From assembly GCF_026151205.1 (NCBI RefSeq), contig NC_087075.1:15203628-15267627 (forward strand): DNA of 64,000 bases, given 5' to 3'. Positions 18,301-51,059 of the stretch are shown here, piece after piece (position 1 is the stretch's first letter; the number at the start of each line of letters is the position of its first letter). The translations under genes and the position numbers were made by a program. Under the pieces are notes generated by a model that made no database searches, was not told the origin of the DNA, and saw only the letters and a list, made by a program, of their open reading frames with translations. Source of the stretch: Bolinopsis microptera. Taxonomy: Eukaryota; Ctenophora; Tentaculata; Lobata; Bolinopsidae.

Positions 18301-20037
18301 TTTAAACTTCCAACCGTTCTCAACGGTCATACCATCAGTTTGCATCTCAACACCTTTTTGGACACCACTCCCAGAGCAGCTTTTACAGCTCACTGACACC
18401 TGCTGGGATTTGTCCGGGGCTACACTATTCACTAACCGGGTACTGAGCAGCTTTTCAAGCCAGTTTTGCCCACAAAACTTTGCAATCCAGGGTCTCCCAA
18501 ACAGACTGGGAAAATCCTCTGCTACATAAAGCTGCAAGTCACGAGCTTTCTCTCCATTCAACTCTACTTCAACTACTGCGCAGCCATCTACTGCTTTGAT
18601 TTGTCCGTTTGCAACGCGCAACGTTTTCCTGCTGGGGGTTAGTGTTAAGTCGGATAAACCACAGACCCTCAACGCACGTTTACTTACAACTGAAACCGCA
18701 GACCCAGAATCAAACTCCATACACAGAAGTTTCCCATTGATTCTAACTTCAACATACGGTTTACTCAAATCAGTAACATTTATGTCAGAACACAATTTAT
18801 CAGATATCAGACTTAACTCAGACTTCAACTTATCAGTGGTAATATCATAATCAGAATCTTTCCTATTTAACACATCAAAAATAGGATTAGTTAAACTTAA
18901 ATTGTCGGCAACACAATCAAAATTATTCGATATTTCAACAGAAGAATTCGGTGCTTCATTTAAATCGACAGAATTCAACACATCACAAGCAACAGGCATA
19001 GATTTCATCTCGGTTACATGCACACAATTTGGAATATCAGCACATGGAAAAGAACAATTAGTATTAGATTCCCCATTTTCCAAAACGGTCTCCACTAAAT
19101 TACAATTATCGTAATACTCAGAGTAGAGCTCATCATCTAATACTCTCTCGCAACTCTCATCCATGTCGTACTCTCCCTCAGCTCTCGAATCCTCGGCTCT
19201 CGAACTCTCTACATTGTGCACTCCCTTCTGCCTACATTTCTTTGCTATGTGACCTATCTTGTCACATTTGTGACACCGAACGTTACACTTCTCTGATTCA
19301 TGTCCACGCAGACCGCACCGACCACATTTAGTTCCTTTCTGCTTCTGTTTACCAGAGTCTTTGTTTGATGAATCCTCTTTATTATAAGGATTTTTGGACA
19401 TCGTCCTTCTGAAAACGGTTTGATTTTTGACATAGTTCACAGTTCCGCCATAGTTCCCAGTTCCGCCAGACATAATTTGAGCCTCTTTGTTGGCCTGCTC
19501 TTTGCTCAAAGCTTCTTTCACTGCAATAACCAAAGTCAGGTTTTCTCTCGCCAGTAAATCTGACACAACTCTTTGGTCCTTCAAGCCAGCCAACAGCTGA
19601 TCCAGCAACGATTCATTGTAGTTTGCGAAATCACATTCGTTCGCAATAGTCCTCAACCGGGAGATGTATGTAGCTGTACCTTCATTTTCTTCCTGTGTAC
19701 AACTTCTAAGTTTGAATCGCTGCGCAAACTTCGTTGGAGCGGGACAGAGGTGATTTATTATTACAGTCTTGCACTCTTCATAGGTGCACAAGGTGAGATC
19801 TCTTGGGCTAACTAGTGATTTCAATAGCTTGTACATGTGTTCGTCTAACTTTGAAATAAACAAAGATAAGTTCTTGTAAATTGCTGCATTTCTGACTTCC
19901 GCATTGCTATTATTCTCCGCTAACACTGGAATCACTGTTGCATGATCTCCTGCTGCTAGGAAAAACTCGTACCGTTCGAACCATGAACGAATACACGAGT
20001 TTGCGGTTAAAGGTTCGCACTTACTGCTCGTCGCCAT
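15343..20037 (-). CDS. Gag-Pol polyprotein of the Ty3 element
   Basis: A single 1564-codon frame with no gag/pol shift. Order: Gag-like region (1-230); two CCHC-type knuckles near 236-270 (CGRCGLRGHESEKC, CHKCDKIGHIAKKC); aspartic protease with FDSGSAVSVVS near 440; reverse transcriptase (about 640-850) with FSKVDIKKAY and LPYG; RNase H with DTDAASGGIGAVLSH and TDHRAL; an integrase H2C2 zinc region (HATHIG...CEAC), and a D,D,E core seen at HADFAG, VTDNGPQF and SNGICER. The basic, proline-rich C-terminus ends the ORF. The RT catalytic box reads CRIDD where the family normally has an aromatic residue before xDD, which is unusual for an otherwise intact copy. The short acidic, serine-rich stretch between the knuckles and protease is a linker. 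Confidence 0.95.
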   Translation of the reverse strand: MATSSKCEPLTANSCIRSWFERYEFFLAAGDHATVIPVLAENNSNAEVRNAAIYKNLSLFISKLDEHMYKLLKSLVSPRDLTLCTYEECKTVIINHLCPAPTKFAQRFKLRSCTQEENEGTATYISRLRTIANECDFANYNESLLDQLLAGLKDQRVVSDLLARENLTLVIAVKEALSKEQANKEAQIMSGGTGNYGGTVNYVKNQTVFRRTMSKNPYNKEDSSNKDSGKQKQKGTKCGRCGLRGHESEKCNVRCHKCDKIGHIAKKCRQKGVHNVESSRAEDSRAEGEYDMDESCERVLDDELYSEYYDNCNLVETVLENGESNTNCSFPCADIPNCVHVTEMKSMPVACDVLNSVDLNEAPNSSVEISNNFDCVADNLSLTNPIFDVLNRKDSDYDITTDKLKSELSLISDKLCSDINVTDLSKPYVEVRINGKLLCMEFDSGSAVSVVSKRALRVCGLSDLTLTPSRKTLRVANGQIKAVDGCAVVEVELNGEKARDLQLYVAEDFPSLFGRPWIAKFCGQNWLEKLLSTRLVNSVAPDKSQQVSVSCKSCSGSGVQKGVEMQTDGMTVENGWKFKNTCIRIEQCRSVARLKQSEVFKPGLGLVKGVQASFVLKDEAKPVMCKARTIPYALRSKVEQEIDSMVESETLTKVADSPWGTPLVPVMKDGGESVRICGDYKSTLNKCLSTKEYPLPTIEECFNSVRGGQKFSKVDIKKAYNNLLIREEDRVLTTLNTHKGLFQWNRLPYGISSSSAIFQSVMDDTLAGVPMTCCRIDDILISGRNDEEHLINLNNVITRLELRGFKCKVEKSSFMEDHVVYLGHVVSASGIRPVQSKVDSLLKTPEPQNVDQLISFLGAVNYYRRYLPNLSAVIAPLERLRAKNVPWVWSAEEGKAFRVLKKLLSSDRVLTFYDPKLALKLDTDAASGGIGAVLSHIMPNGEERPIEFISRTLSPTERRYAQIDKEALAIVWSIKRLHIYLYMRKFTLVTDHRALVRIFGNKPLPEMTAGRITRWAIFLMNYQYDIQYRNTKEHLNADMLSRLPRQVAHPVVAKNEFADMFTLTLSETLLNAELVANETRKDPILSKVMDYTLNGWPKNLKCEGDLKAFWSRRDELSHELGCLTWGARVVIPVKLRGTVMNILHATHIGVTGMKSLARSYVYWPRLDTQIEDTARTCEACAKHGKILTKIVDHPWAKTSAPFQRVHADFAGPFLGSMWLLLVDSYSKWPEVIQMNTNTTSSATIRAFRSIFARTGIPICLVTDNGPQFVSEETEVYLKSCGIKHVTVPTYSPKSNGICERLVQSWKYAMTKMAETCKDVCKNLNDFLLTYRNTPHSSTKQTPAVLAFNRTLRSKLHQIKPSDRMREQELQSEKLQDVINEHPRTREFRENQLVFVKLDDKSPWIQARVIKKYGENSNNYDIQCGNRIVKKHADVIKACHTPVIQMERSTIPAAQRSLLTRDLARSNVKFQRLEETLERRRLRNLGVSDGQEQQSAEKPSSPVKTASPVKSQGKQVRASPVKTDGKQVCVSESVRPTVSTLLAEPSVRPTRSAKSAALIRMKGMT

Positions 20038-20038
20038 T

Positions 20039-20145
20039 TGTTGAATCGTTGAGACAAAGGATACACTCTAGTGATGAAACATTAAAGGCTAAAACAGTAG
20101 CAATTGGTTAGTAATATATATATAACATAAATCAACAATATAACA
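20039..20145 (-). repeat. 5' LTR of the Ty3 element
   Basis: 107 bp, indistinguishable from 14720-14826 by eye. The gag ATG lies directly downstream on the minus strand. Confidence 0.95.
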
Positions 20146-21249: not shown

Positions 21250-21400
21250 CACTATATAGTCAGTGTAATAAGCGCCAAGCGCGAGCACAGAATTTTTTTG
21301 TCCAAATATCGTTTATATGTTTTTTAAAGTGTGCGGGGGATACGGAATCATCGAAAACCACCGTGTAGCAATTTTCACTAGCTTAATTTGACACTGGTAT
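21250..21400. repeat. Dispersed repeat, inverted relative to 37740-37880
   Basis: CAGTGTAATAAGCGCCAAGC, GCGAGCACAGA and a later CCACCGTGTAGCAAT occur in inverse orientation and order at 37.74-37.88 kb. No coding capacity. Confidence 0.7.
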
Positions 21401-23641
21401 TATTTTTTTTGTTTTTGACTGTCAATGTGTAAAAACGTTTTCTTACCATCATCCGATGAGTTTTTTGGTAAAATTTTGATACCAATATTTATCTCATCAA
21501 TGTGTTATGAGTCCTACATCTTCATATTATAAATTCCTGCATTGGTATGCGAGTTATTTCAAAATGAAAATTCCAGTGATCCGCGCTACGAAGAGTTCAC
21601 GTTCAGATGTAAGTGTTAACGCATCAACTTTTTACATACAACTGATAAATTTGGCGCGCGCGCCAGCGCTAATTCGTCCAAAAAGCATATGGTTCTTATT
21701 CTCAGTAAACAACAAAATGGCGAACCTTTTCTTGTTGCAGTACGACCACGTACGTAACGGTCCTTTGGGACAAATTTCCTTGTAACATATTCGAAAAGCT
21801 CTCTTGTTTTTTTCGCAACTCTCATGAGAGCCGATACTATTTGCACCATAATTTGGTGAGTGACGACTTCCCTTTATTTTTTATTCTGACAGAGCGGTAT
21901 CTTTCGGAACGTTGTGGTATGAGCGCGTTTATTTACGGTTATATGCCTAAATACATGAGCTGGTGCTCGGTTATTTTCATAAGTGGGCACTGGGTGCAAA
22001 AATAAGTTTATATCCAAGTCCGGTATTTCACCATAATTTTATTATCAGACTTTAAGGAATTTAAGCTGCAGGTTTCATGCTTATTTTTTCAGCTACCAGC
22101 TCTATTATCTACTCACACCATGCTAAACTATAGTGAGGCCGGTGAGTACAAGTTCAGAGTCATAAGTTAAGGTCCAATATATTATCCTGTATGTTTATAC
22201 TACATCCGTAAAATAAGCTATTATTCAGAGCTTGTATGTAAAACAAAAGGAGTAACAGTAGGAGTAACAGCAGTACAGAGGTCAAACTGAAGTTTAAATT
22301 CATGTCTAATGGAAGAGGGCATTTCTCTGCCATTTTTGTGCTTTCAAAACAAAAATAAACGGCGCATTTGATTGAAATTAATTTCAATTTAACATATGTA
22401 CAGTCATTAACAGTCATAAATGAAGCACAAATATAATATGAAGCTATAAAGTCAGACTCTAAATCGAATCGAGAGAAATTTAAAAGTTAAAATGTCTATT
22501 TTACTAGCAGTCAATATAATATTTGTTTCGTACAACAAGACTTGCTGAATAGCAAAGTTGCGGCTGCTTTTAAAATCAATCCATAGATTTAAGTTTTATT
22601 GTACGGTGAAAAATGTGCAGTCTTTAAGTCTTCTTTATTTGTACGCCTCAAAACTGGTTAGCAATTATGTAACATTTCTTTCTCATAAACAAGTTTATCA
22701 CATCATCAGATAAAAACATTTGAAAAACCATTACTAATAATGTATACTATGATTCGAATAAATTTATAACAAAAATACAGTCGATTTCTTTCTCAGTTAT
22801 CAGCAATAAAGTTTAAATCAAAATATGTTCTCTAACGCTTTCACAAGACCTTGCGAGTTGTGATAAAGAATAATTCAAGTTAATGCCGAGCGGTATTCAA
22901 ATATATTATTAATATTCAAATAACTTATTAATATTCAAGTAACTTATAATATTCAAATGAAATGGGTAGGCATTTTTTGTCCTGTGAAATGCGACCTCGG
23001 AGGACGTATTTAAGATTTTGAATCCGTTCAGTGCATTAAATAACGGTAGTTCGAGCGGTATCCGCTTCAACTACATAAATTACCTTGAGCAAGCTTTTAA
23101 AATGTTCAGGAAGAAGGGCATTTATTCCCTTCATTAACCAGTACAGTGCAGTAATCCTGGATTATCATAACTGGCAACATGACTTAAAATTATTATCCGT
23201 TATGTAATGGACCAAATCTAAAAGCCAATAACTACGTTTAAGATGTACATTGTACATATTAAGATGTACATTGTATAATCATGTAAGATGTATGATCCGT
23301 TAAAATGGAGTTGGTCCTTCCCAAATTGGCGCCATGTCGTCTGCTGTTTTATTAACTGTCGTGTGCTCCCGGAAACTCACTCTTATTATATGGCTGTGCC
23401 TTAAATAAACAAAAGTTCGGCAAGTACAGAATAGAGCGAGACCGCTTAAAACATATAATATAACAGCCCGGTGCCGATAAGTGCAGATAACTGATATATA
23501 GCAAGTGATTGCAATAAGATAAATTCGGAGTTCCGACAGATTTATTGAGTGTGGAAAAGGCTGTAACATCCAAATTTGAATAAAACCTAACCTTACACGT
23601 CCTAGATAATGAATTTGGAGATATTAATGTGTATAATTTAT
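21401..23641. other. Unassigned AT-rich DNA
   Basis: No gene, RNA or clear repeat was supported. A GC-rich palindrome GGCGCGCGCGCC lies at 21653. The minus-strand frame near 23300-23570 is hydrophobic in part but has no splice or homology support. Confidence 0.45.
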
Positions 23642-24450
23642 TTAGGGCGATGAGGCAAAAAATTTATTGTGAATAATTTCAGCATATTCTGAACTGTCTG
23701 TGCTGGCTGCACTTTTTGTTGGAGAGCTGTCTAAGAGCTCTTGCAGTTCTTTTATCGTTTCCTCCTCGTCAATAAGATCAATAAGATCTCGTTTTGGTTT
23801 TGAGTACGGTGTGGTACTTTTAATTTTCTCTCCAGTTCTAACAAGTATTGGAGTTGAACTTGTACTTCTTAATCTTCTTACCCTGATTGAATTGAAATAA
23901 TCATCGTTAGTTTATGAGATTTAAGCCAATTCTTTCCAGGAACGAAATGCTTGTTATCATACAGAGTTAAAGTGAGATTCTAAAGGTAATAAATTTAAAT
24001 TTTTTCAAAGGATGGCGTCCACTTTAATTCACTTTTTTTAGAACTTACAAACCGTTATTACACAGTATATTTCCAAAAAAATTAACTTCTAGGTAAATTT
24101 AACAAAACACTATGATCTGATATTGAATTACCTTTTCATCTTGAGCTTTGTTAACTCAATCCTATCCTGACATCTGTTCACCGAATCAGTACAATCCTGA
24201 AAATATTTCACATGAAATTTAAACTGATTGCCTTCGTTTCACGTTTGGTAAGAAGGAAATTTATGCGATTTAAATTGTTATTGCATTAATTAAAACCCCC
24301 TGTGGTTCTTCTAATAGGACAATAATATTTTATTAAAAGAACAACCAGCATCAATCAACAAAATCTTGTATAAAATATGCTTCGCACAATACTGACCTTA
24401 CATATCAGCAAATGCTCCATGTTCTTCAGGCAGTTCAGGGTAGTAGCCAT
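23642..24450 (-). CDS. Three-exon gene for an unrecognised 119-aa protein
   Basis: Exon 1 (24450-24397) begins MATTLNCLKNMEHLLICK and ends at a GTCAGT donor. Exon 2 (24196-24132) follows TATTTTCAG, encodes DCTDSVNRCQDRIELTKLKM and ends at GTAATT. Exon 3 (23882-23642) follows a CAATCAG acceptor, encodes a basic RRLRSTSSTP region, then DLIDLIDEEETIKELQELL (acidic, probably a short helix or coiled coil) and ends ...NKFFASSP and stop. Phases are 0 and 2 and close exactly. AATAAA follows the stop within a few bases. There is no signal peptide or transmembrane segment; charged and serine-rich parts suggest a small, partly disordered nuclear or cytoplasmic protein. I do not recognise the family. Confidence 0.68.
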
Positions 24451-27149
24451 TTTTCTATTCTAAGACAAACAAAGTTAGCTGCTATTAATATCATAACGCA
24501 GTATTACAGATAAGAAAAAATATATTTAGTATGATTTTTGTGTATGTAAAAATTGTCCTTGAAAAAGTTTTGGGGTGACATTTAGTAGTTCTATGATAGA
24601 GAAAATAAAACATAAACACACGGAATATTGATGTAACATAAGCATAAACAACAATGAAATCTTCATTTTTACGGTATTTGTGATTCATCACAATTGCATT
24701 CTATATATATCCTAATTATTAAAACACAGAAAATGTAAGTAAAATTAACGAAAACGAAAAATATCGTAAATATTACTGAAACTCTCACGTAAGCTGTTTA
24801 CACTTTACATTCTATGTGGATAAATACTTCTTCAAAACATTACAGTTGAGTGCCTTGGAAATTATGTAATCCCTTCAATTTACTTGTGGTAACTTAGTTT
24901 TAAGTTACGTGGTGACTTAGTGCTAACTAATAGATACATAACTCAGACATGAACTAAAATGTGCCTAAGATTCATGTTTATAAAAATACGATTTTACTAT
25001 TATTAGCAGTCTCGCGAGTAACAATAATCACACTTATTTCAAGATATCTCAGCTTCTGATACTATTGTCCCCTGGTTCCAATTTGGTTCTAAAAATCCGG
25101 ATTCATCTACTCTACATGTTGAAGGATAAGCTTACATATTACAAAACCATAATTTCAAAGTATTAATTAGTTCACTTATCCTTCAAAACAGCCATTTCCG
25201 TTTAATATTCTCCAGTACTGTTCTATTTATTACAGTATTAATATGGAAAATTCAAGAAACTTGTACCTATCATAGCCTATAATTCGAGAGTTTTTTATGT
25301 AATGTATTTTATTTATACTTTACTTTAATGGATTTACCTATTTAACGTCAGGATAACCGACAGGTATCATATAGGAGAGTAATATGACAGGCTACAACCA
25401 AAAAGCTCTTGAATTGCTGGATTATACTTGTAGGCAGCATCACACTAATATAACATAACAGTTAATAGTATGGTAGTAAAAAGCAATAATATAACTAGCA
25501 TAAGAAGATGATTAGCTTTCCCTCTAGCATTACTAAGTAGTTTAATAAGATCCTACTCAAATTCAGCTGGTAACACGCCATCTGTCCGACAGCACTATTT
25601 TCTTGTGTGATATCTCAATTCTCAAATTTGGCACATAGAAACTCGCTCAAACTTACACAGATTATCTGTCTTATAACCACCATACTTTATGGAAAGTTTC
25701 CTAGTCGGGCAGATGTCGCTGTCGGACAGATGTCGCCCAATCGCAAACAACATACAATTTACGTAACTGAAATATTAACTTGTTCGATTGATTAAAAAAC
25801 CTTTTGTCCAATTTCGATAATGTCTGTCTTATATTCACAATTAAATTCTAAACAATAAATAAATTGAAATATATACTAAAACCTGCATCATCAAAATAAC
25901 TTACATAACTGAAAAAGTAACTTGTTCGATTGAATATCAACAATCCAAATAAAAATAAAGATTGCCGAAATGCCGATGTCAAAGCGGCTGGCCTATGAAT
26001 ATACCCCAAACTATGATATTTAGTTAATGAATATGATATAATTAAAGGTTAGTATAGCAACGGTATAAAAAACAACTTAAGGATGTATATCATTAAACAT
26101 TGTTGTAAATCGTTCACTCCAATACCATGTCCGTAACAAATACAGCTTTCTGTCCAATTTAGATACCTTATAAGAACGAATTTCATGAGACTAAATTTTT
26201 CGACGACTAATTATTAAGGGAGACCAAAATTTCAGTAGAGCATATATGACATGAATTGTGTTGACCTTACATTGTTTATAATTAATATGATGACATGATC
26301 ACTGTTCCTACTGCTGAACTACTTTGTTGGGAGGAAAGACCGTTGTGAAACTACGTAGCACAGAACTGAACCAAAGTCCTATTGTACTTGAAGGCTTAGG
26401 GTTAACTATAAAGTATTATATATGACTTTATATGCAAAATCGGAAAAACAAACTAGCTAAATAATGGAAAAATCATATAAATGGAATGGAAAATAATTAT
26501 TATTAGTTACTATTATCATTACAATAAAAATTACATTAAAAAAAATTGTCATCTGTTAACTACAGTGCCCCTCTTAACAGCACCCGATGTTAACATTTTA
26601 CCAATTGCAATTTGCAGCGCATACTAAAATCACCCGACAAAGAGCATTCTAACAACTACAGTGTAACAGTGGTCAGTGCCCCCTTCTAGTACCCCAACTA
26701 TCTATTAAAGTATTAACTGCAGTGCCCATTACAAGGCACAAGCACCCGATCTTAGAACTCTATTAACTGCAGTTCCCGCTACCAGCACCCGATTTTAAGA
26801 ATAAAGTGGAAAATACTTAATAAACAATATGACTTATATCAAAATTGGTTCAGTCAAAACAGCAATAATGCCAATGGTATAAATCGTATCTATTTTAGAA
26901 ATCATTCACCCGAGGATTTCCAGAAAATAATAAGGAATATAAATAAAAGTCATACATGAGGAATCACCATCTATTGACAGTGTAAGCGTTCATGTAATAA
27001 ATGCTTTCTAGTCAAATGTGTATCAGTGGATTAATTCAACACAGATTAAATAATGTCGAACTCTACAATTGAGTTATTGTGGACTAAAAAATATAGCAAT
27101 TTGGCCGTCTCAACTGTTTCATTACTGAGTAGTCATCAAAGTGCTGGCA
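24451..27149. other. AT-rich DNA without a supported gene
   Basis: Upstream region of the 119-aa gene and beyond. Degenerate repeats around TTAACTGCAGTGCCC and AGCACCCGAT occur at 26560-26800. GTCGGACAGATGTCGC-like repeats occur at 25590 and 25708-25738. No exons recognised. Confidence 0.5.
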
Positions 27150-27458
27150 AGCATGACCGTGCCTCTTATACATTCTATACTATTATACCCCCTTTACTGT
27201 TTTTCAGACATTAAGTTGGTATATTCACGAATTTTATCAACTTTGGAGTCCCGTTGTGATTCTAGTTCTTTATGAAATCTTTTGAAACTTAGCACGCCTT
27301 ATCGACAGATATGCCTACCTAAACACAAGGAAATGTTTTCAAAGGTTAAAGTTCGAAATCGTTGAAATTACCTCCTTATTAATATAAATGAGGTTATGAG
27401 TTTACATTTTGACTTTTTAAAATACCCTGACATCATAATCAAAAAGAGATGATATTTT
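27150..27458. repeat. Diverged copy of the composite element modules (A fragment plus module B)
   Basis: It starts with AGTGCTGGCAAGCATGACCG and a TACTATTATACCCCC stretch, as in module A at 49.2 kb. It then follows the same order as inverted module B at 59.2-59.6 kb (TGTGATT...TTTGAAACTT, CCTAAACACAAGGAAATG, TCAAAAAGAGATGATAT). Identity is visibly lower than among the 49-60 kb copies, so it is older. Confidence 0.75.
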
Positions 27459-27965
27459 ACCAAAACTCATAATCATGGGTAGAGTGGACCGCTGCCAGTT
27501 TCTCTCTTTCCCAAACAAAAGTAAATGACATTCATTTGAATGACCGTCTGCAAATGAAGAATGATACCGAGAATGAAATCGGTCGCTCGCTTTTCCCATT
27601 CATTTACATTTATAATTGTAATAGATTAAAAAGAACTACCTGAAGGTATCTGTACTCGGCAATGAAGATTCAATAATGAATAAACATCAGCTTATTGGAC
27701 ACTAACTATACCGCCCTCATCCCGAAATACTAGGTATCGACCAGAACGCAACCCAAAGAGATTTTTACAGCATGTGATTGATGCGATTATTCGAAACTTA
27801 TTACAATTCGTAAGCCGTGAATGAATGGGAAAAGCGAGCGACCGATTTCATTCTCGGTATCATTTAGCATTCGCAGACGGTCATTTAAATTGATATCATT
27901 TACTTTTGTTTGGGAAAGAGAGACACTGGCAGCGGTCCACTCTACCCATGGTTATGGGTTTTGAT
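27459..27965. mobile_element. Palindromic (fold-back) MITE, diverged copy
   Basis: Terminal inverted repeats begin ACCAAAACTCATAATCATGG and include GTAGAGTGGACCGCTGCC, with inner inverted segments GATACCGAGAATGAAATCGG and AAGCGAGCGACCG. It ends 16 bp before the stop codon of the FEN1-like gene, so the 3' UTR of that gene probably runs into it. Confidence 0.88.
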
Positions 27966-27981
27966 TAAATTACACACAAGG

Positions 27982-30900
27982 TTACACACTACAGTCGCCT
28001 TTACAGCCGCATTGGGACCAGCAAACCGTACATTTACATCTGGTACAAGAACTGCCGACCCTACAAGAGCAAGAACGCATCAATTTCTTAAACTCGTCAT
28101 TTTCTTTAGTGTAGATCCTATTTGTCCATACGCTGAGCAACTTACCTTCTTTTTGTTTCCAACCCCAGTCGACGGGATCTGGTAAGACTGGATACGGTTC
28201 AGCTGCACTCATCCAAAGGAACGATGCCACGTATAAACTTCTTTTGGCATGTTGAAACAGCGCTGGCTTAGATGGTGGTAATGACCGTAAAGTAGTGATG
28301 TTCGACGACAAAAGTTCTAGACGGGCCACAGCACTTCCTTTCTCCGGATAAGCAACCCTGTAGACTCTCAGCACAAAGTTTTCTAATTTGGAGAACTCGC
28401 TCATGAGTAGGGAAGGTCTTTTAACGAGAGATGAAAACAAAGTCCCCGCCTCATTATTACTTACGTACTCTTTCAACCACGCTGACTTTCCTCTACCGTA
28501 GAAGCTTTCAGTAAAGTCGCAGCCGGACAAGGAATGTAAGAGGACTAGACCTAGAGTTCGGTCCATGCCAACATAACCCGCAATAAGATCTATGTCAATA
28601 CAGTTGGACTGATTTACTCCTGTAATGACATATATCTTACAACTAGGCCTAGCCTCTCGAAACTTTCCTAGGAAGGCGGTAACAATAACGACAACGTCAG
28701 TGTCGTTACTGATGACAGTGATCTTTTCGAACTTCTTTAACGCGTCCAAGATGTGGAGGACAATGCGGTAATCAGCTTCCAGTTGTGAACTCCCGACGAT
28801 GTCAGTTATTCCCTGTCGGTTCTGAAGGACTTCATCATGCTTCGTTAATACGAACTGTTTGGAGCAAGTGCTAGACTGATCGAACATAAAAGATATGAGC
28901 TGTTCGTACAGTTCGCACTTGTTTTCATTAACTTTCATCAGATTTTCCGCGAACTTACCGGGAAATTTGTCTTCTGGCGTGAAGTTTACCATACTCCCAC
29001 TCCCTCGACCCTGGCGAGTGAACTCTTTGAGGATATTGTCCTCTTTGTAGTTGTCCGTGACAATATCAACCCTCGAATGAGCTGCTCCCAGCAGAGAAGT
29101 TCTATCCCAGACAGCTTTATAAAACTGGGCCATCTTGAAATATTTACCGTGACAAAGGGCAGTAACGATGCAGCTCAAGTCGATAACTACCGCCTCACTG
29201 TGATGTCCATTAGTGAGGTCGACAGTAGATACCTTCTTGAGACAGTCGAGAAGCTTACTCTTTGATGACCGATAAGCTTCACCACCCCTTGTCAGGCATG
29301 CTGGTATGTTGAGGTACTCGTAATGGAGGGCTTCCAATGTCTCTGTAGGTCGTTTTTGAGAAACATCTTTCAGCTTTGAGAGAAGCTTTACTTCCTGGAC
29401 AACACTGAGATGTTCGGGTGTTATCTTAAGCTTCTCTGGATGCCCTGGGAGGAGTATGTTGGTTGTTGTCAGAGCGTCCGTGAGTGGTACTCTGCACGTT
29501 ACTAACCTATCCATAACATACTCCTCGTACCTCTTCGTACCGTCCGCAACAAGGTTCTTCATAAAAAGAGAGACCATTTTGCTCGACGGCACCTGTTGCC
29601 GATTATTCAGGCAGACCAGAGAGGAATGAGAAGAAAATGGATCGAATCTCTCCTGAATGGCACTCTTTAGCAGACGGAAGTCAGAGAGAAACGTTTTTTG
29701 ATAACCTACGCGATCACTGTGGTGCTTCAACTTCGTAGGATCGCTCTCGATCTTCTCTCCAAAAATTTCCGGATAACAATCTTCATACTCCGATAGAAGA
29801 CGGAGCACCTCAGGGCAGGCCATGTTCCACCGGTCTCCAATATCTGTACCCAAAGCTCCGTGCAGGCTTTTTATGTCTTTGTTCAGTTGTTCATAAGCCT
29901 GGTCAAGAGCCATAGAGGAAAAGGGCCGACCGGTCCTCGATACAGTAAAATTGCCGTGCTCAGAAAATTCTACGTAGATGTCAGGGTGAGAAATTTGAAT
30001 TTTTTTCAGATCCTCTAAATGAACAGAAAGCCATCTGCTATAATGCGTATGGTTCAATTGGAACATATACGGCATAATCTTCTCAAGGCAAGCGATGTAC
30101 AGCTTAAAATTTCTGGATCTTATTGAGTATTTGAAAGTCAAAAATAGCACACCGAATTTCAGCACACAGTCCCAGTATACAAACATTTCAGAATCTAACT
30201 GCTGGTCCTCTGTCAGGCTTGATTTCTCCTTCATGTCATAAAGGACTGAGGTGACCAACTGAAAACAGAGGTTGGTTATCTTACCATTCAACAATGAATA
30301 ATTATAGCTAGAACTACATCGACAAATCTATTCTGCGACAAGAAGAAAGCTATCTTTCTTGTTCAAATAGGAATGATATGGAAACTGAGTAATCGTTGGA
30401 GTAAACCTTAAACCCGGGGATTCGCAAAGAGCCCTTTTTACCTGAATCAACAAAGCCGACCGTGCGATATTATTCGAACTCAGGAGAGCATTTCCCGCAG
30501 ACTCGACTGATAAGTCTTTTGTGAGGTCCATCACTTCTTTTAGCCCAGTTCCAGCAACAAGCTGGGCGAAAATCTGTTCCAGCACCTGAATCGAACAGAA
30601 ACTTATCAGAAGCTGCCGAACAACTATGATCTATTTAACAATTCTCATCAGGTAATAATGCTATAATACATCAGCATACATTTTAATATAATATGCACAT
30701 TATATGTAATATACATTATAAATTATTCAGTATACACGTATGCATAAGAAGTTTGAACAAATTTGATAAGTCTACCTTTTCGATGTGCATAGCTCCCATT
30801 AATGGAAGGTACACTGACGGGTCGTATCCGGGAACAAACCACTGTATCTCTTTACAGTTTGTATATACAGGTTGGTCACTAACGTCAATTGTGACCTGAC

Positions 30901-33900
30901 CAGGGTTCAGATGTTGTGTTCCCTTCCTGGTCGGTAATGGTTACTTTTAAAACCCGACGAATGTAATGTCACAAACCTAGTTTATTCTAAATAAGAATTG
31001 TACAATGCGTATTATGATTTAAATGAGTAAATAACTAACATTGCTATGTTTATCGTATGTCGAGCCATTTCATGTGAGTTAATAGACTCCTTCTGTAGTG
31101 GTAAGGACCCCAGTAGAGTTTTTTCTACAGGAGAAGCGTTTCGAGAGTGGTATGTTGACCATGAAAGATTCTCCAACACACAAGTTGCTTTACTAACATA
31201 CTCCAGCCATTTCAGTTGTAATTCGTAACCGGTTTTAAACTGAAAGTTAGTATAATGAGTCGGGTTCGATTTTACCAGTCTGCGTGAATGGATTAAGTAA
31301 ATAAAGTATATATTCGTTAAGGACTGTACCTATTCAAAATATACAACTGATATATCGGCTGTAAAGTGTAACGTTCTTTAAAATTGTACATTTAACAAAT
31401 AAACAAAATATGTCTTGAAGGATAACTCAGAAAAAGTATTAACTTCTGGTAAAACTTACTTCGGTATCATCAACTGGAAGAGAATTCACGTTGTTAAGAG
31501 GAGCTGAGAACTTCTTTGGTATATACGTCCGCGTACAGGATTTCTCAAAATTAAAGTACTCAGCTAGTTCGTTCTTCTCATTAGATTCGTCATATAGGGT
31601 AAGATTTCTACGCTGACCCTGCTTTCCTGGATGATAAACCTGTTAGCTTTAACGCTTATTATACAAATTATAGAGGGGGGGGGGGGGGGGGGGTAAAAGT
31701 CAGTACCTATACGTTGGCCTTAATAGCTCAGTCACCGAGTGCCCAATCGAAATAATTCTTTCTGGTATGACTTACTAAGTTACTACTACCACTGGTACGA
31801 GGAATCTGTCAAATCGAAAAATTAGGTTAATTTTCACATTTATTTGATAGTTTGGATAGTCGGATCGAGCCAAATTTTATTGAATTGCCTTTGGCTATTT
31901 AAATTACGTTTGTCCTGAAAAAATGAGAGTTCTAGCTTCTCAGATGACCGAGATATAAAGCATAACGAGTTCGTTCATTACGTGTGATCAGGTGATTGGG
32001 TTGAGGCTAGATCAGCATTATGGGAATCGTGCAGAGAGCCCAATTACGGTGTCGTAATTGGGTAATCATTGAGTACCCAGTCAATTTTGCTAACGAGATA
32101 AACAACGGAATCCTCGAAGAAGTAGGTACAGTATGCCATCTGCAAAGCAACAACTCTCAAATATAAAACACAGCGGTGGTATAAGACCAAACGTATAGGT
32201 ACTGAATTTTGGCTCTCCTGTATATTAATCATTATATATATTTATCATGGAGGTTGGAGCCTTAATACTACAACAATCAAATTTATATCATTATTATCTT
32301 TGAGTATGTGGAACGACTCAAACTGCAAGGAAAATGTTATCGCAATTTTGCACTGCCCAGCACTAGTATTGCAATTGGTAAAGTTTCGTTTTACCTTCTC
32401 TCGGGAACTGCATTGTCGACATTACGGTTCCATGGAAATGTCCCTTTCCTTGTATGTTGGTCCTGTCTGCATCCAGGTTGTCTTTTCCCCACAGTAAAAT
32501 TACACCGTAGACACAGATGGTTGGCACCACGATTGTTTTCATAGTCTGTTTTGCTGCTTCTCCCATGTTGGTCATCAGATCAAGGCAGCGTCTATAATGT
32601 GGTAACTGAAGTAAACACTCAGATGATTATTTTGAAAGGGGTTGTTTGGAAGTATGCTACCTCAAATTTCCAGTTTAATTTTAAAGCGGTCACATCCAAA
32701 TTTGCAAATCAAATGATTTAATGAGGAGACTAAAACCTGTCCACTGGAGTGTAAAGTATCAACCGAATTAGCACTTTGTGTGGTAGCATATAGTTTCAAC
32801 GCCAGGTACTGTATAACTGGTGACTCTTTACTAGGATCTCGTCTCCTATATCCAGCATCCTGTAAATTAACCAGTTAAAAAGGATCAATAAACTGTTTCG
32901 TTACATGCATAATATGGAAAAGAGTAAGCTTGAGCTACTGCATGAATTGCGATAATCGTTTGTGATTAATTTCTTTGAAGGAATTCCATTTACTATGGAC
33001 CAATTTTGAATCATTGATAACAATTACCTGATTTCTTACTCTGTCCATCATGTTGTATTGAATTACACTCGCAATACTGTCAGCAATGTACGCAAATTCT
33101 CCTATACTAACAGGTTGACCATACAATAGTAAGTTTACGAGTTCTATCAGATCATCAGCGGGAGATTGGTTGCGGATAATTTCATCATTGAAGGTACCAA
33201 CAAATTTATTATCAATGGCAAGCGACTCATTCCTAACCTTCTTAACTGAGTCGTCCAAGGTTTCTTCACTGAAGTGAAGTTTGCCTAAACCGTCGAATAG
33301 TTTTTTGTTTAGACAAACATACCCTTTTTTACCATTAGCATTTGAAACAACCGTTAATTGCTCGCTGCAGTGGGTTTTCAGTAGTTTTAATATTTTGAAC
33401 TCTGAGCATGGCAAAAGTTCAGATTCAATATCCTTCAAACCGATGCAGAGTTGTTTTACTGATCTAGAAAACATATTTACAGCATGTTCGGAACTGAAAA
33501 CAATCCGATCACTCTCCTCAATGATACAAATCATCTTCTGTAGGGCAGTTATTGTGAGTGAAGCAGCAGAGTCTAAAGAAGGTGATTTTTGGCTCACAAC
33601 TGAGGCCGGAGAGGAACAATCCACACTTCTCATCGGGGTTGTCTGACTTGCTTCCTTATCAGCTTCTGGTGGAAGGAGCGATGGTTGTGGGGTGACCTCC
33701 AATGATTTCCTCTTTTGCCTCTTAATAGGTGTGTGTATTTTTGCTGCCTTCCTTTTAAGGGTTGTTAACGAGTGTTGCACATTGCAGCGTCTGTGATACA
33801 CAGCCGTTTTTGCAACAAGGGTCCTAATGATGCTCTCCGATTGATCAAAGTTCCCGTCCCATCCCAGGTTGAAGAGATTCGGAGTTATCCTCAGGCCTTT

Positions 33901-36900
33901 TTTTTTAAATGATAGAAGATTACCAGCGATTGTCTTGTAACCCTGGGAGCTCTGGCCAGGGCAAACAAGCTTGCCACAATCCTCCTGAGAAAGTAAAAGT
34001 TTAGGCGAGGAAAGGGGTTTTGTGGGGTGGGGAAGGGGGGGGGGGGGGGGGGGGGGGTTGTATTATCATTAAACTAGAAAACCCGTGGTCACAGGGAAGA
34101 AGGTAATAGTATTTTTATCTATCTTAAGTAATCAGTTTTTGTGGCATCAAAAATAATTCTCTGAATTATAAGCAAGAAGATAAGGTAGAACCTGATTGTT
34201 GTTCATTAGTTTACGCTCTAGTAAGTCGCGATTACAGCAAATGAAATCAAAATCGGTTTCTGAACTGTTTAGAAGCGTTAAATTCAGTGAAGTATATCAT
34301 GCTTTTAAACTCTAAATACTTCAGGTTGTAATCCTACACTATTCAGCATTCCATGTCACGGTACCCTAAAGGCCTAAACATTCCTCATATATTTTCTTAA
34401 ATGTAACAGAAACTGAGTATTTTGATTTTATCTGCTGTAATTGCTACTTGCGTAAAAATAGGTTTTGGGCTAATAATTCAACAACCTAATGCCCAATTTT
34501 AGCTCCTTACTCCAAACAGAAACCGAGTTATATCAAGTGGAGAGATGTGTGTGTAGATATCCAAAAAGAGCGTGGTCAATTGCAAAGTTCCCCCTCAGCG
34601 ACATAACAAAGGGCCCCGGCAGGGCCCTTTTTTGGAGCACACTTTGATAATTTATGTCAATACCAGCAAAGTTCAATATGAATAAGCAATATTTGGATGG
34701 AAAAAGGTATACGGTATATGAGCCAAAAATAGCCAAAATCTGTCGATTTGAGTTCGTAAAATACAGGTAAGGGGGGCAAATCTGATTTCATAGGATTTTT
34801 CTAATATTTTTCCCATATTTCATGGTTTTTATGGTTTCCTTGCTAAAATACCCTTAAACAATCACATAAGCATGATTGATGACCAATTGCATACGAAAAA
34901 ACAGAAAAATGGGACAGAAACCGCTTAAAAATCGATGAAATCTTAAAATTTCTAGTCAAAAAAGATGCTTTTTGTATGACAGAAAGTGCCAAATTTTCAA
35001 AAAAATTGATTTTTTTGTCCAGAAATGTATTGAAAGTTGTCCTATTTTACTAAAACTAATCATAATCGACGATTTAATCTAAATTCAAACCACCAAGATG
35101 TGACCAGAGGCATAAAAAGGCAAAAAACTGCAAAGTCACAATGCCCTATGAGATTGCCCCACTGTGCCTGCTTGGTTTGAAACTTCCTCGATAAGATTTT
35201 AAGTAATCGTTTCGTTTCTATAATGATCGCTTTGTAATCACTCTGTAACAGATCTGTAATCATTCTGTATAATCATTCATTTTGGAATTTGGATAACCAT
35301 TTAATTAAATTACAAATTAAAACAAATTAACTAATTGTTCAAAATTTTGGGTACACACGCGAAATATTCCTGAAATTGAGTCTTAGGCGCAAAGTACCCA
35401 AAAATTAAGGCTGTGGCGCGAGTGCCAAAAAATTAAGAATTTTGCCCCCTATGAAGAAAATCATTCCTACACCCCTGGAAAAACTTGACTAGGGTACTAG
35501 CAAAGCTGCGCTCTTTGCTATAGAAACACACTTTTTAAGAGATTTTACCAGCGTATCCTCTAAAATCATTAAATTTAAAAAGTCTGCTAAAATTGGATCG
35601 TTCCAATTTAAGACCTTCCTTATAAATGGTGTAATTGTCAACATTTTTGGCCAAATTGAGCTTCTGACTCCAATCAGAAGCAGAGATATTTTTGTTTAAA
35701 CTTATCATTTCATTTTAAACATGATTTTGAACCAGAAACATACTTAGGAGTGGTTAAGATCCCCGATGCTCGGAAAAGCTTAACAAGGTTTCGTATTAGC
35801 TGCCACAATCTTTACATTGAGAGGGGCCGTTACGAAACCCCCCTAGTACCAAGAGAACATCGATGGTGCACTTTTTGCTTTTTCAGCAAGGGGCTTAAGC
35901 CTATCGAGGACGAAATTCATGTTCTAACTGACTGTTTACTCTACTCCTCAGTTAGAGAAAAATTTAACTTCCATCCCAAAAATATTACTGACCTAGCCGG
36001 TTTGCTATCCGATAAAACACTAGACCCTACAAAATTTACTGCCACAGCAAGAGCAATCCATTCAATTCTCTCTGTGAACGAAAATTTTACAGCCTACTAT
36101 AAGAGCCCAGATTTCCACTCAAATACTGGCCAATGCATAATGCTATAGGACCTCAAAAATAGTATTATATTAAACATTTCTATTTTATCCCTACACATCT
36201 GTAAATAACTAGAATTGTGTAACCTTAAATTATTTCAGAATTATAACTATTGTGAATTCAATAAAATAATTATCACTTTTGTATCCTTGTATCCTTGTAT
36301 CCTTGTATCCTACAAATAATTTTTTGATGGGTCCCTTCATCTATTCTGAGTCCCAAACCCTGTTTTAAGACGGGAATATAGCCAGATCCATGAGTATATT
36401 GAAATTTTGGACGGTCCCAATGTTCAATCTAATGCTTAGATTTAGTTATCATAAGGAGAGTTGGTGTAACATAGCCAAAATTTTACCAAATTCCAATTTT
36501 GACAGAAGGCTACCCGATGCGGCCCACAGGCACTGGTCAGTGCCCCGAGTCCCCAACACCCTCAAAACAAGCACTGATCTGGTCTAAACGATCTCCTCAA
36601 AATGTCAGTCAGAAGCACTACCTATTTTGTTGGTAAAATGCTATTTTTACTGCAATCTATATTTATGTGAATTCTACACATTAAAACATATATGGGCCAC
36701 CAACCAACCCATTATTTTCAAGTCAGCATTGTCGGTAATATTAACCCCTGCAGTAGGAATGGGAATGGGAGCTAGAATGGGAAGGAGATCAGTGAGAACC
36801 AGAAGGGAAACCGCATTTAACCTTCAGTCAAACCACAATATGAAAATTAATGAAGTCTAGCAATTACACAGAAACAAAATATTGAAAGATAAGAAACATG

Positions 36901-37118
36901 CATCGTTATAAACTTTTAAAAGGAACCTTTTCAACTGGAGATTCTTTGAAACACTTGTCTTTAAAACTTGACTGTTGATGCAACTGATCGATTTCCTGGA
37001 AGGAAAGATCGATTAGAGCAGTTTTTGTGAACAACAAATACATTATAAATATTGTACTTACTTGACAGATAAAGCATTTCTCCCAATTCATTTGTTCATT
37101 CTGATCTGCCAAAAACAT
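27982..37118 (-). CDS. Large uncharacterised protein with a FEN1/XPG-like nuclease core (nine exons, 1415 aa)
   Basis: Exons on the minus strand: 37118-37062, 33984-33028, 32859-32737, 32605-32395, 31626-31460, 31200-31040, 30926-30776, 30585-30442, 30258-27982. All junctions are GT-AG and every phase closes (0,0,0,1,0,2,0,0). The N-terminus has a zinc-finger-like CFIC...C....C followed by YHRRC (residues 15-86). A middle region has KDNLDADRTNIQGKGHFHGT, then HLNPGQ and LPLMGAMHIEK, matching a family I recall as abundant in cnidarian, mollusc and echinoderm genomes (HLNPGQ, GGLHIE, NYARWLPVH, EEADTR, DTDVVV, GCDT). The C-terminal half has acidic residues placed as in FEN1: VVIDLS (D1017), VTDNY (D1059), LEADYR (E1151, D1153), SNDTDVVV (D1176, D1178) and SGCDFTES (D1238). 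A cysteine-rich tail CSCRVGSSCTRCKC...C (1387-1413) may bind zinc. Nuclease activity is inferred; the biological role is unknown. Intron 1 is 3 kb and holds LINE and G-tract sequence. Confidence 0.88.
30259..30441 (-). other. Intron 8 of the FEN1-like gene (removes an in-frame TAG)
   Basis: Without splicing, the frame from 30585 to 27982 is open except for one TAG at 30328-30330. A donor CAG/GTAAAA at 30442 and an acceptor CTCTGTTTTCAG at 30259 remove 183 bp in phase 0. The join gives LLIQLVTSVLYDM, which fits the RxxHQVT..LY pattern of the family, so the stop is intronic. Confidence 0.8.
31673..31694. repeat. G homopolymer in intron 4
   Basis: A run of about 20 G preceded by AGA and followed by TAAAAG. 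No matching C-tract end was found nearby, so it may be a remnant of a G-ended element or a simple repeat. Confidence 0.7.
34030..34190. repeat. G homopolymer plus dispersed repeat in intron 1
   Basis: A run of about 23 G at 34036-34058 is followed by the CTAGAAAACCCGTGGTCACA repeat (34076), whose family member at 11.33 kb is split by the TTAA element. Confidence 0.7.
35733..36315 (+). mobile_element. 5'-truncated LINE 3' end with TATCCTTG tail
   Basis: A plus-strand frame ending at 36148 encodes the C-terminal domain typical of cnidarian-type LINE polymerases: IERGRY, then a WCTFC...EDEIHVLTDC zinc-knuckle-like motif. It is followed by a short 3' UTR and four tandem TATCCTTG units at 36282-36311, probably the 3' tail used for reinsertion. 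It lies in intron 1 of the FEN1-like gene, antisense to it. Confidence 0.8.
36316..37061. other. Rest of intron 1 of the FEN1-like gene
   Basis: AT-rich. A GGTACC-poor stretch with CCCGATGCGGCCCACAGG near 36515 may be another old retroelement fragment, but no frame supports it. Confidence 0.4.
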
Positions 37119-37739
37119 TCATTATGAAAGGTAACAATAAGATTAAAGTGAGAATAAACCAAAGATCAAGTTATTATCAATACTGATAGGATAAGCTATG
37201 TGTTGTATGTACTTTAAAATGTCTATGAATAAATTCTTTGCAAAAATGATGTTTGTGCCCAGCTTTAAATTAAACTTTAAAATACAAAATAGGTCTTATG
37301 AATATGAAAACTTAAGTGATTTGTGATTGCCAGTTTACATGAGTAAGCCCTTATCGTTCAAATTCAATTTCAGCATATGATGAAGCACCAAAAATATTCC
37401 ACTCTGATATGTTTGATAAAATAAAAGGAAACTTTAAATAAATAATTGCAATCAAATAGTGGACAACTCTTGGTTTCTTAAAATTCTTGCTTAAAATACA
37501 CTTAATTAAATGTATCCACATTTGTACTGAAGTGTCGTTTTAAAAGATTTAAGAAATTCTGTCGTATATTCCTCCTTCATTTTTAAATGACGAAATCGAA
37601 ATAATCAGCAACACCAACACAATGCAACTTAAAAATAAAAGTGAAATTGCAAATAAGATGCGTATAGCGCTCGATTTCTATCGACGATTCGATTTTTTAT
37701 TGCGCAGGACGAGTGCGCGGCGTAAAAATCGCGATCTCG

Positions 37740-37877
37740 ATGAACGCTGAGCGAATATTGCTACACGTACGGTGGTTAAAAATTATTTACATCTCGACTA
37801 AAACAATAGTATAAAAATTTTAATAATCGGAGAAAAAAAATCTGTGCTCGCGCTTGGCGCTTATTACACTGACTAAT
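37740..37877. repeat. Dispersed repeat, inverted relative to 21250-21400
   Basis: It contains TTGCTACACGTACGGTGGTT and TCTGTGCTCGCGCTTGGCGC, the inverse of the segments at 21.25-21.40 kb. It directly abuts the hairpin cluster. Confidence 0.7.
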
Positions 37878-38016
37878 AGTGTCTTCGACACTGTAGCGTC
37901 TTCGACGCTACAGGGGGAGCCGCGCACTTCGTGCGCGGCGGGTCATACAACGTATGACAACAAAAACCGTAAGTCTCCAATTTTTTCGTGCGCGGCGGGT
38001 CATACAACCTATGACA
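37878..38016. repeat. Cluster of perfect hairpins with TTC (complement GAA) triloops
   Basis: Adjacent perfect stems: 37878-37892 (6 bp, AGTGTC-TTC-GACACT), 37891-37913 (10 bp around GTC-TTC-GAC), 37919-37939 (9 bp, GCCGCGCAC-TTC-GTGCGCGGC) and 37942-37958 (7 bp, GTCATAC-AAC-GTATGAC). A partial second copy of the last two follows at 37988-38016. A decayed inverse relative is inserted at 20633-20739. Confidence 0.85.
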
Positions 38017-38420: not shown

Positions 38421-39189
38421 GAGGCCCAGTCTAGTATAGTAGTAGCGCATTTTCCAGACTAGATGTAACTACGTGGTTAAGAGAAGCATGATTGAGTGCA
38501 CGGCGCGGTCCAGTAACGCATTACGCTACAAAGGTAATATCGAAGAAGGTCACTTCCCCTTCAAGAATGAATCAATTTAGTAGCTTCATTTTGAAAACAA
38601 AGGCATACATTATCATTTCGAGCCAATGTTTTGACGTATTAAACAACGATAGTCTGCATGCCGACTGGTAGTCATGGTAATTCGATAACTACTCTTCTTA
38701 ATAGGATGATATTGTTCGTTATATTTAAATTTTATACCGATTTAAACGGTTCCTGTGTACAATGAGAGACTATAACAATTACTTGTAATATTACAAACTA
38801 AAATTATGCTGGGTATTTACTAAGATATTTGGTCTGATGGAAGGGTTTTGACAACCTTACCGACAATATTCTGATTCAGCAAAAAAAGATAAAATAAAAT
38901 TTGGTAACGTCCAACTAACTTGAAACAATCGTTAATTCTAAGTAACTAAATTTTGTAAAGATCCTTTGGTTGTTTTAACCTGTTGTTTTGGTGTGTATTC
39001 CCTTAACCTACTGGTTCAAATAGCAGCCGAATAACATTCAATAAAACAAGAAATTTACTTTTTAAAGATTTTGCAGCACTGTTTAAAACCAATATCATTT
39101 TGTTCCTCTAAACTAGATCCTACGAAAATACTGATTAATGATACATCAAAAAGTTCATTCGCTTTGAATTGAAATTCAATCATAATAGT
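38421..39189. other. Unassigned DNA 3' of the peptide precursor gene
   Basis: AT-rich with no supported gene. The 3' UTR of the minus-strand precursor should extend into the right end of this stretch. Confidence 0.4.
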
Positions 39190-41132
39190 CTAGGCAGCGA
39201 AATATTTGCTCCTTTTCACAAACGAGTTCCCCTCATCAGCTCCGTCCAGCAACATTAAACCGTGACCAATCTCTCTTTTCTTCACGAGAGATATACCGTG
39301 TCCTACTTCCCGTTTCTTTAGACCACCGTTACCATGGCTACCAACAGTATCAATCTCTTCGCTGAGTTGAGCTTCTTTGTTATCATCTAGGAGCGGGTTT
39401 TTCATCCCTGAAATGTATGTTATTAAAAATAAAATCAATAAAATAGGGGGACTCATGTTGATGTAGTAACCATGGTAATTAGGGCTGGCATGGTATGGGA
39501 GCTGGTGGTATTGGAGTTGGTGGTATTGGAGCTGGTGGTATTGGAGCTGGTGGTATTGGAGCTGGTGGTATTGGAGCTGGTGGTATTGGAGCTGGTGGTA
39601 TTGGAGCTGGTGGTATTGGAGCTGGTGGTATTGGAGCTGGTGGTATTGGAGCTGGTGGTATTGGAGCTGGTGGTATTGGTGCTGGTGGTATTGGAGCTGG
39701 TGGTATTGGAGCTGGTGGTATTGGTGCTGGTGGTATTGGAGCTGGTGGTATTGGAGCTGGTGGTATTGGAGCTGGTGGTATTGGAGCTGGTGGTATTGGA
39801 GCTGGTGGTATTGGAGCTGGTGGTATTGGAGCTGGTGGTATTGGAGCTGGTGGTATTGGTGCTGGTGGTATTGGAGCTGGTGGTATTGGAGCTGGTGGTA
39901 TTGGTGCTGGTGGTATTGGAGCTGGTGGTATTGGAGCTGGTGGTATTGGAGCTGGTGGTATTGGAGCTGGTGGTATTGGAGCTGGTGGTATTGGAGCTGG
40001 TGGTATTGGAGCTGGTGGTATTGGAGCTGGTGGTATTGGAGCTGGTGGTATTGGTGCTGGTGGTATTGGAGCTGGTGGTATTGGAGCTGGTGGTATTGGT
40101 GCTGGTGGTATTGGAGCTGGTGGTATTGGAGCTGGTGGTATTGGAGCTGGTGGTATTGGAGCTGGTGGTATTGGAGCTGGTGGTATTGGTGCTGGTGGTA
40201 TTGGAGCTGGTGGTATTGGAGTTGGTGGTATTGGAGTTGGTGGTATTGGAGCTGGTGGTATTGGAGCTGGTGGTATTGGAGCTGGTGGTATTGGAGCTGG
40301 TGGTATTGGAGCTGGTGGTATTGGAGCTGGTGGTATTGGAGCTGGTGGTATGGGAGCTGTTGGTATGGGAGCTGTTGGTATGGGAGCTGTTGGTATTGGA
40401 ACTGGTGGTATTGGAGCTGGTGGTATTGGAGTTGGTGGTATTGGAGTTGGTGGTATTGGAGCTGGTGGTATTGGAGCTGGTGGTATTGGAGCTGGTGGTA
40501 TTGGAGCTGGTGGTATTGGAGCTGGTGGTATTGGTGCTGGTGGTATTGGAGCTGGTGGTATTGGAGTTGGTGGTATTGGAGTTGGTGGTATTGGAGCTGG
40601 TGGTATTGGAGCTGGTGGTATTGGAGCTGGTGGTATTGGTGCTGGTGGTATTGGAGCTGGTGGTATTGGAGCTGGTGGTATGGGAGCTGTTGGTATGGGA
40701 GCTGTTGGTATGGGAGCTGTTGGTATTGGAGCTGGTGGTATTGGAGCTGGTGGTATTGGAGCTGGTGGTATTGGAGCTGGTGGTATTGGAGCTGTTGGTA
40801 TGGGAGCTGGTGGTATTGGAGCTGGTGGTATTGGAACTGGTGGTGGCTAATGGTTCTATTGGTATTAGCATTGGGGCGAAACAGTATTTCTAATTCATTT
40901 CTAACGATGAATATTAACTTTTTGAGACAAGGTTTTACTTACAAATTTGATAGGAGACGGTGAACAGCTGAAATAGCAGCACAATCCTGAAAATAAAATA
41001 ATCTGTAATTTGTATATCAGTACACTGTACAGTCTGATGACAGTTCTAAACATTTAACAATATTAATCTACTTAAACTTTAAGCATTTAGGTAGCAACCC
41101 ATCACTCACCAGAAGAAGTTGGCAATCCTCAT
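39190..41132 (-). CDS. Secreted peptide precursor with dibasic cleavage sites (candidate neuropeptide)
   Basis: Three exons: 41132-41110 (MRIANFF), 40986-40943 (completing a hydrophobic [14 protein letters not shown]) and 39407-39190. Donors are GTGAGT and GTAAGT; acceptors are ATTTTCAG and ACATTTCAG. Phases 2 and 1 close to a 94-aa product. A signal peptide of about 20 residues is followed by an acidic spacer and then three basic sites. These give [27 protein letters not shown]..., followed by VKR-SKYFAA and stop. The two KKR-E[VI]GHG[IL] segments are repeats, as in multi-copy peptide precursors processed by prohormone convertases in the secretory pathway. I recognise no named peptide family. 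The second intron is almost entirely a 15-bp minisatellite. An ATG at 39456 also gives a hydrophobic start, but it lies in the polypyrimidine region of that acceptor, so I prefer the spliced form. Confidence 0.7.
39492..40846. repeat. 15-bp minisatellite inside the peptide gene intron
   Basis: About 90 units of GGTATTGGAGCTGGT. Variants GGTGCT, GGAGTTGG and GGTATGGGAGCTGTT fall in recurring patterns; a triple block of the last variant appears at about 40349 and again at about 40679. The 15-bp length and lack of stops keep several frames open on both strands (for example TSSNT, HQLQY, GAGGI and ELVVL), so the long ORFs across it are not evidence of coding. Confidence 0.95.
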
Positions 41133-50199: not shown

Positions 50200-51059
50200 C
50201 AAATATCATCTCTTTTTGATTATAATGTCAGGGTATTTTATAAAGTCGAAATATAAACTGATATCTTCATTAATAAGGAGGAAGTTTCAACAATTTCGAA
50301 ATTTTTCCTTTAAAAACATTTCCTTGTGTTTAGGGAAGCATATCGGTCGATCACTGACTGAATATGCCACTTAATACTCATTCAAGTTGGCATTAAATTC
50401 ATTTATAATGACATTAAACTGTCGTGGCAAAGCAGAATTTGTTGGAAATCACGAATGAGCAAAATTCTCACCTTTCGCACGTGCAAACTTTGAGCGGACG
50501 TTGCGTGCGCATCCAATATTGAATCGCCGTAAATTTTTGCATGATGGTGTTTTATATATAGCTTGATAAGCATGCAAAGTTTCAAAGTATTTCAAAAAGA
50601 ACTGTAATCACAACGGCACTCTAAAGTTGACAGAAAATGACGAAAACAGCAATTTTCAGTGATTTTAGCAATTTTCTATCAATTTGGGCGTGTCCCCACG
50701 TGTGCAACTTTTCGATTTTTAACTTTAAAACTAGCCTAATGCACAATTTATACCTATAGGAAGCAGAACTGAGCTCCACAACCCAAGGCATGGCCCAACA
50801 CCAGAGAATACTAAATCGCAAAATTGACGTTTTTATAAAATAATTCTTCAAAAAAGCACAAACTTCAATGACGAATATCTTTATGAAGGAGCAAGCTAGA
50901 AAAACTTTCCGGTAGATTTTCAGAATGCTTGAACAATTATCTAAGATAAAAATTTCCTCAGATTTTGAATACAATTACTTTTTAATGGTGTAAAATCATT
51001 TTTAAAAGTTATTACTTTGTCAAAAATCAAGTTTTAAAAACGGTTAACTTGATGACGTC
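50200..51059. repeat. Module B, copy 1 (left flank of the Copia insertion)
   Basis: About 860 bp, from CAAATATCATCTCTTTTTG to AACTTGATGACGTC. Near-identical copies are at 56470-57330 and, inverted, 58741-59595. The 117-codon antisense frame starts at a non-ATG codon and is not called. Confidence 0.9.

Follow-up and report, generated by a model that had tools for sequence, protein, structure and literature searches.

A nine-exon gene of the ctenophore Bolinopsis microptera, very probably the transposase gene of an AcademX-type DNA transposon with a FEN1/XPG-like nuclease domain

A stretch of 64,000 nucleotides from the genome of the ctenophore Bolinopsis microptera (NC_087075.1, positions 15,203,628 to 15,267,627; hereafter the window) contains on its minus strand, from 37118 to 27982, a gene of nine exons with GT-AG at every border. 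All reading phases close and the spliced model is free of in-frame stops, which bears out the intact gene proposed in the initial annotation. Exon 1 (37062-37118, residues 1-19) encodes the first half of an N-terminal CxxC finger-like motif and exon 2 (33028-33984, residues 20-338) its YHxxC half. They are followed by exon 3 (32737-32859, residues 339-379), exon 4 (32426-32605, residues 380-439) with the motif KDNLD and a candidate first catalytic aspartate, D421, exon 5 (31460-31639, residues 440-499), exon 6 (31040-31239, residues 500-566), exon 7 (30776-30926, residues 566-616) with VSDQPVY and a candidate second catalytic aspartate, D583, and exon 8 (30442-30585, residues 617-664). Exon 9 (27982-30279, residues 665-1429 and the stop codon) covers the end of a putative DDE-type region, a FEN1/XPG-like nuclease domain and a CXC tail. 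The length of the protein is set by the last acceptor, 1429 aa with position 30279 and 1445 aa with the alternative at 30327. The 1415 aa given initially was not obtained exactly. The difference of 14 residues falls before the nuclease, and the acidic residues listed at that time are all present with a constant shift of 14 (D1031, D1073, E1165/D1167, D1190/D1192 and D1252 in the 1429-aa model).

The exon borders were compared with those of the closest related family in the genome, a sequence of 40% identity in three contiguous pieces (L026, L005 and L027). For six of the eight junctions (residues 338, 379, ~499, 566, 616 and 664), including those of exons 3, 6, 7 and 8, the tblastn blocks of this relative end at the junction or close to it. 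They continue across the junctions at residues 19 and 439, which are without support from that relative. Two donor sites are weak, GTTTTA in exon 3 and GTTAGT in exon 6.

Nine full-length members of the protein family were aligned, with at most one row gapped in each conserved column. They share C15, C18, H83 and C86, which form the N-terminal finger-like motif (CxxC...YHxxC), as well as D421, D583, H613, D790 and E794, and at the C-terminus C1401, C1403, C1409 and C1414. The finger and the cysteine-rich tail noticed initially are therefore present, not as additions in this copy, but as conserved features of the family. From this one alignment, D421 (DN.D), D583 (DQPVY/DEGVY) and E794 (DQA.E) can be proposed as a candidate DDE triad. 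In Pfam, the window exon matched DUF6589 below the cut-off (7.7e-5). So did three proteins out of another six (3.3e-4, 0.0047 and a chance-level 0.11), and a literature search on DUF6589 returned no papers. Pfam helicase families were absent from window exons 1, 2, 8 and 9 and from the relatives scanned. The tail (27985-28071, minus strand) resembles the CXC domain of Tesmin/TSO1 proteins, the family profile matching LIN54 with an E-value of 0.0056. Pfam TCR was found in nine of 17 members; the window copy gave no match though its cysteines are present. The other four names from the Pfam scan of the C-terminal set were taken for chance. Between two cysteines, the tail of the window copy is shorter than in most relatives, and this shortening may matter. 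The likeness to LIN54 lies in the C-terminal cysteine pattern, whereas the motif here is a single, short copy that in the window falls below detection.

The putative nuclease core lies at 28444-29214 on the minus strand (approximately residues 1020-1276). In an alignment of 17 members (A1; the window and 16 others), D1167, D1190, D1192, G1250, D1252 and the alanine of the EAD motif are invariant. Read by eye, the column of E1165 holds E in 16 members and D in one; among the 14 members covering the two upstream positions, that of D1031 holds D throughout and that of D1073 D in ten and E in four. The acids follow the order D, D, ExE/D, DxD, D of the FEN1/XPG seven-acid two-metal site. Searched against PDB sequences, the A1 profile retrieved LIN54 through the CXC tail, five EXO1 entries (best E 0.016), FEN1 (1.3) and a defensin (6.1). 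A second profile, A4, was built from the core alone with 12 of the 17 members, leaving out the near-duplicates or fragments L016, L017, L019, L020 and L025. All 18 of its PDB matches at E ≤ 10 belong to the XPG family (four EXO1, 13 FEN1, one GEN1); individually these matches are weak (best 0.053) and amount in effect to three proteins. The region of the GCDY helix aligns with EXO1, as does, at a near-zero score, a further collinear segment surrounding the second acid. With hhalign, the A1 profile paired DTD with DSD and GCD with GSDY in the genome's own XPG (L055, recognised by its ERCC-5 matches; E 0.003, probability 10%). The Pfam family XPG_I (PF00867) was detected in seven stretches genome-wide, none of them in these elements, and a Pfam scan of the C-terminal part of the window protein gave no family match. 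AlphaFold, run on the window sequence alone, reached a pLDDT of 34.4 for 480 residues and of 32.2 for 257 residues; these models are uninformative on the fold. Profile searches and conservation within the family together give good support, at motif and profile level, to the FEN1/XPG-like active site suspected initially. The resemblance to FEN1, XPG, EXO1 and GEN1 consists of the order and context of the acidic residues, GCDY with the following helix and, in EXO1, the stretch of the second acid; the window domain differs in being too remote for PF00867 and in its position within a transposase.

The flanks of the gene in the window were searched for ends of the TAGT type, as found in other element families of this genome. 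The sequence TAGTCAGTGTAATAAG occurs at 21257 and, inverted, at 37875, with 16 of 16 positions matching and ATA on either side. In the same search, 60 Markov-resampled flank pairs yielded at most 14 matches, and at most 13 where a 3-bp target-site duplication (TSD) was present. The two positions delimit a transposon of 16,619 bp (21257-37875, transposase on the minus strand). Its left terminal inverted repeat (TIR; 21257-21309, plus strand) shares the first 16 bases with the right one (37823-37875, minus strand) and is 91.7% identical to it over a 60-bp alignment. The TSD ATA lies at 21254-21256 and 37876-37878. The element was inserted in a genome repeat, for which two related unoccupied sites with nearly contiguous flanks were recovered; at the insertion point, L060 has a single ATA and L059 has ATG. 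The list of inverted repeats also contained pairs outside 21257 and 37875, part of which is the genome repeat hosting the insertion. When the window was searched with the inverted ends of three further families of this genome, nothing convincing was matched (best E 0.004).

Genome searches with both flanks (40 scored candidates in each list) revealed copies that start at 37875 or 21257 or a few bases away, with a distance of at most 3 bp for 37875. By our reading of these lists, both ends occur together at no fewer than 12 places, one pair being 31 kb apart. The borders were read for ten copies, whose lengths, calculated from the coordinates, are 6.8-14.6 kb. Exact 3-bp TSDs flank nine of the ten: seven were found by script (TAT, TAG, CAC, ATA, TAG, CAC and CAT) and two, with one changed base in an end, by eye (CTA and TAC). 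The tenth has unequal flanks (TCA/ATA). The sister copies prove the ends of the window element. Five copies were sampled. L030-L032 match each other at 99.2-99.6% identity along the longest stretches they share (L032 was seen at one end), L033 and L034 are ~94% identical to each other, and either is 91-93% identical to L030-L032. At its left end, the window element shares its outermost 43 bp unchanged with L030-L033 and at 97.7% identity with L034. Since three of the five copies are ~99% identical, the family moved recently. Matches to the big exon of the transposase (58 of 148 candidates scored) fell in none of the 12 two-ended places, and the sister copies look non-autonomous because no transposase match was seen among these scored candidates. 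Such non-coding copies with shared ends were probably mobilised in trans by the window protein or a similar one.

Counting itself, the big exon matches at least 54 stretches of the genome (58 of 148 candidates scored). TIRs, proposed initially as a check together with family size, were found in the window element, in L001-L004, in L009 and in L026+L005+L027. L001-L004 are 99.1-99.6% identical copies with inverted ends of ~390 bp and TSDs read by eye from the ends (gca, cct, tat and tac); in L003 the duplication flanks a right end that is placed 5 bp inward of the consensus. The four copies form a family of their own, 7.1 kb long and near-identical; two of them contain a single 1559-aa ORF, and the long frame is broken in L003 and L004. 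One of their eight ends being shifted 5 bp inward is a hint of imprecise end cutting. L009 has inverted ends of ~265 bp with CAG on both sides (by eye); the L008/L009 family also contains a minisatellite of ~42 bp that is open on both strands. The closest family, L026+L005+L027, measures 17.7 kb; its inverted ends are 283 bp long (96.5%), and AAC flanks the element on either side (by eye). The pair L010/L011 had neither inverted ends nor a duplication at its block ends. In all, three of the four other families checked have 3-bp TSDs and one showed no ends; among the copies of these families with both ends read, six of eight show the TSD, the exceptions being L010 and L011. The window big exon and a five-member alignment found no relatives in a set of viral contigs.

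The left arm of the element also contains a second conserved ORF of 89 aa (23645-23911, minus strand), perhaps an exon of an accessory gene, with matches in the window family and in L026+L005+L027. Its dN/dS of 0.18 against the latter rests on 17 changes (10 synonymous, 7 nonsynonymous). Because the changes are few, the compared copy carries a stop in a gapped place and the overlapping plus-strand frame scores 0.30, coding is likely, not proven. The ORF has 30 matches in the genome. Most of them lie where the element arms match too, and two on C11 are weak. Its frame is open in the window copy, as it is in five of six copies at 91-92%; in each of the ten end-inspected sister copies, its best match carries a stop. 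Around it, ~2.3 kb of the left arm (22258-24616) are 85-90% identical to the 17.7-kb family, against 40% for the transposases. Modular exchange or recent capture are possible readings of this shared arm, and the ORF seems to belong to an accessory gene that the families have exchanged. Two repeats are nested in the element on the plus strand, a high-copy interspersed repeat (27301-27970), 11 bp past the stop codon, and in intron 1 a recent LINE 3' fragment (35715-36316; at least 39 other copies at 98-100%, its type read from ORF and tail). Neither insertion breaks an exon. In comparison to L012 and L013, decayed fragments of its own family, the transposase has a dN/dS of 0.20 (36.5 synonymous and 34.5 nonsynonymous changes over 220 codons, with one stop), so its lineage was under selection.

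Outside the element, the window contains an open 1574-aa frame (15343-20067, minus strand) whose protease, reverse transcriptase and integrase-like motifs are those of a Ty3/gypsy-like retroelement, and an open 1422-aa frame (51056-55324, plus strand) resembling a Copia-type polyprotein, both read by eye. A long tandem repeat of ~15-bp units (39190-40963), open in several frames on both strands, is a trap for gene finding. Just outside the element, 38616-39539 is 93% identical to a segment ~200 kb away on the same contig (G000:C4:15042125-15043042).

The nine-exon gene very probably encodes the transposase of an AcademX-type cut-and-paste DNA transposon 16.6 kb in length. This placement is based on the combination of a DDE-type transposase, a FEN1/XPG-like nuclease and a 3-bp TSD, with no helicase found in the scanned parts. 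The element is filed as a new member of a described lineage on these features rather than on an alignment with a reference Academ protein. Academ transposases have a cysteine-rich C-terminus with a Cys-rich zinc finger, and the family of the window element shares the cysteine-rich C-terminus. AcademX elements, a lineage of the Academ superfamily, are TIR DNA transposons; PMC10045372, which cites Kojima 2020 for them, gives a nuclease and TSDs of 3 or 4 bp as their features. AcademH, of the same superfamily by name, differs from the window element in its helicase and its TSDs of 9 or 10 bp; the difference in TSD length seems related to the enzymes (PMC10045372). The initial view of the family as uncharacterised consequently does not hold for nuclease-bearing Academ elements. 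A search by title or abstract found no paper on the Academ nuclease. Possible differences from other AcademX elements are the spliced gene and the second conserved ORF. With 16.6 and 17.7 kb, the elements found here are also large against the mean of 5,565 bp reported for curated bivalve Academ elements in PMC10294476.

A mechanism can be proposed from the arrangement of the domains. The terminal repeats would be bound by a zinc finger at the N-terminus and by the CXC domain at the C-terminus. A DDE-type centre of RNase H fold, with D421, D583 and E794 as candidates, would generate 3'-OH ends and join them to target positions 3 bp from each other. Cleavage of the other, 5' strand, or trimming of flaps where the element is excised or inserted, may fall to the FEN1/XPG-like centre (the seven acids from D1031 to D1252), in a role comparable to that of TnsA in Tn7. 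In its fullest form, this reading describes an intact and probably autonomous AcademX element that unites a DDE transposase and its own TnsA-like, FEN1-type 5'-strand nuclease on one chain, that acts as the recent source driving a non-coding family through the shared ends, and in whose movement the second conserved protein takes part. With all these parts taken together, we put it forward tentatively, as possible rather than probable.

A transposon with inverted ends and a nuclease might instead belong to a superfamily other than Academ, given that the assignment was built on TSD length, the nuclease and the domain layout of Academ rather than on alignment with a reference protein, and that Pfam sees the middle of the protein only as DUF6589 below the cut-off. 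We regard this as unlikely. To our knowledge, no DDE superfamily besides Academ has an XPG-like nuclease. The combination of nuclease and 3-bp TSD is stated for AcademX in PMC10045372, and 20 DDE superfamilies are listed in PMC9587614.

A domesticated Academ transposase, whose gene now serves the host while the transposon ends are relics, is a shade less probable still. Such a history would fit the conserved intactness of a single coding copy, and the window gene is indeed the sole coding copy of its own family at high identity among the scored matches, the nearest others being the decayed fragments L012 and L013, against which dN/dS is low and one stop was met in the compared parts. A transposase that stayed active during its moves would, however, show a low dN/dS just as well. 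The element also retains its two ends and its target duplication intact, shares its outermost 43 bp without a change with four of the five sampled sister copies, and has kept the second ORF. A host structure-specific nuclease or defence gene, as the EXO1/FEN1-like motifs might suggest, is hardly credible for a gene lying wholly inside a bounded mobile element, with at least 53 further matching stretches in the genome, and was rejected on element ends and copy number. Of the origins left open in the initial annotation, that from a transposon was confirmed by ends, TSDs and sister copies; nuclease work for the host and genome defence were not.

For the AcademX transposon favoured here, an intact copy is available together with matching passenger copies that moved recently, and cutting of the second strand could be tested by a transposition assay with changes in the active site. 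The same route may help to explain why nuclease-bearing Academ elements give duplications of 3-4 bp and helicase-bearing ones duplications of 9-10 bp. Proteins of this kind tend to be listed as uncharacterised in gene catalogues, and the present analysis provides them with an identity at the level of domains.
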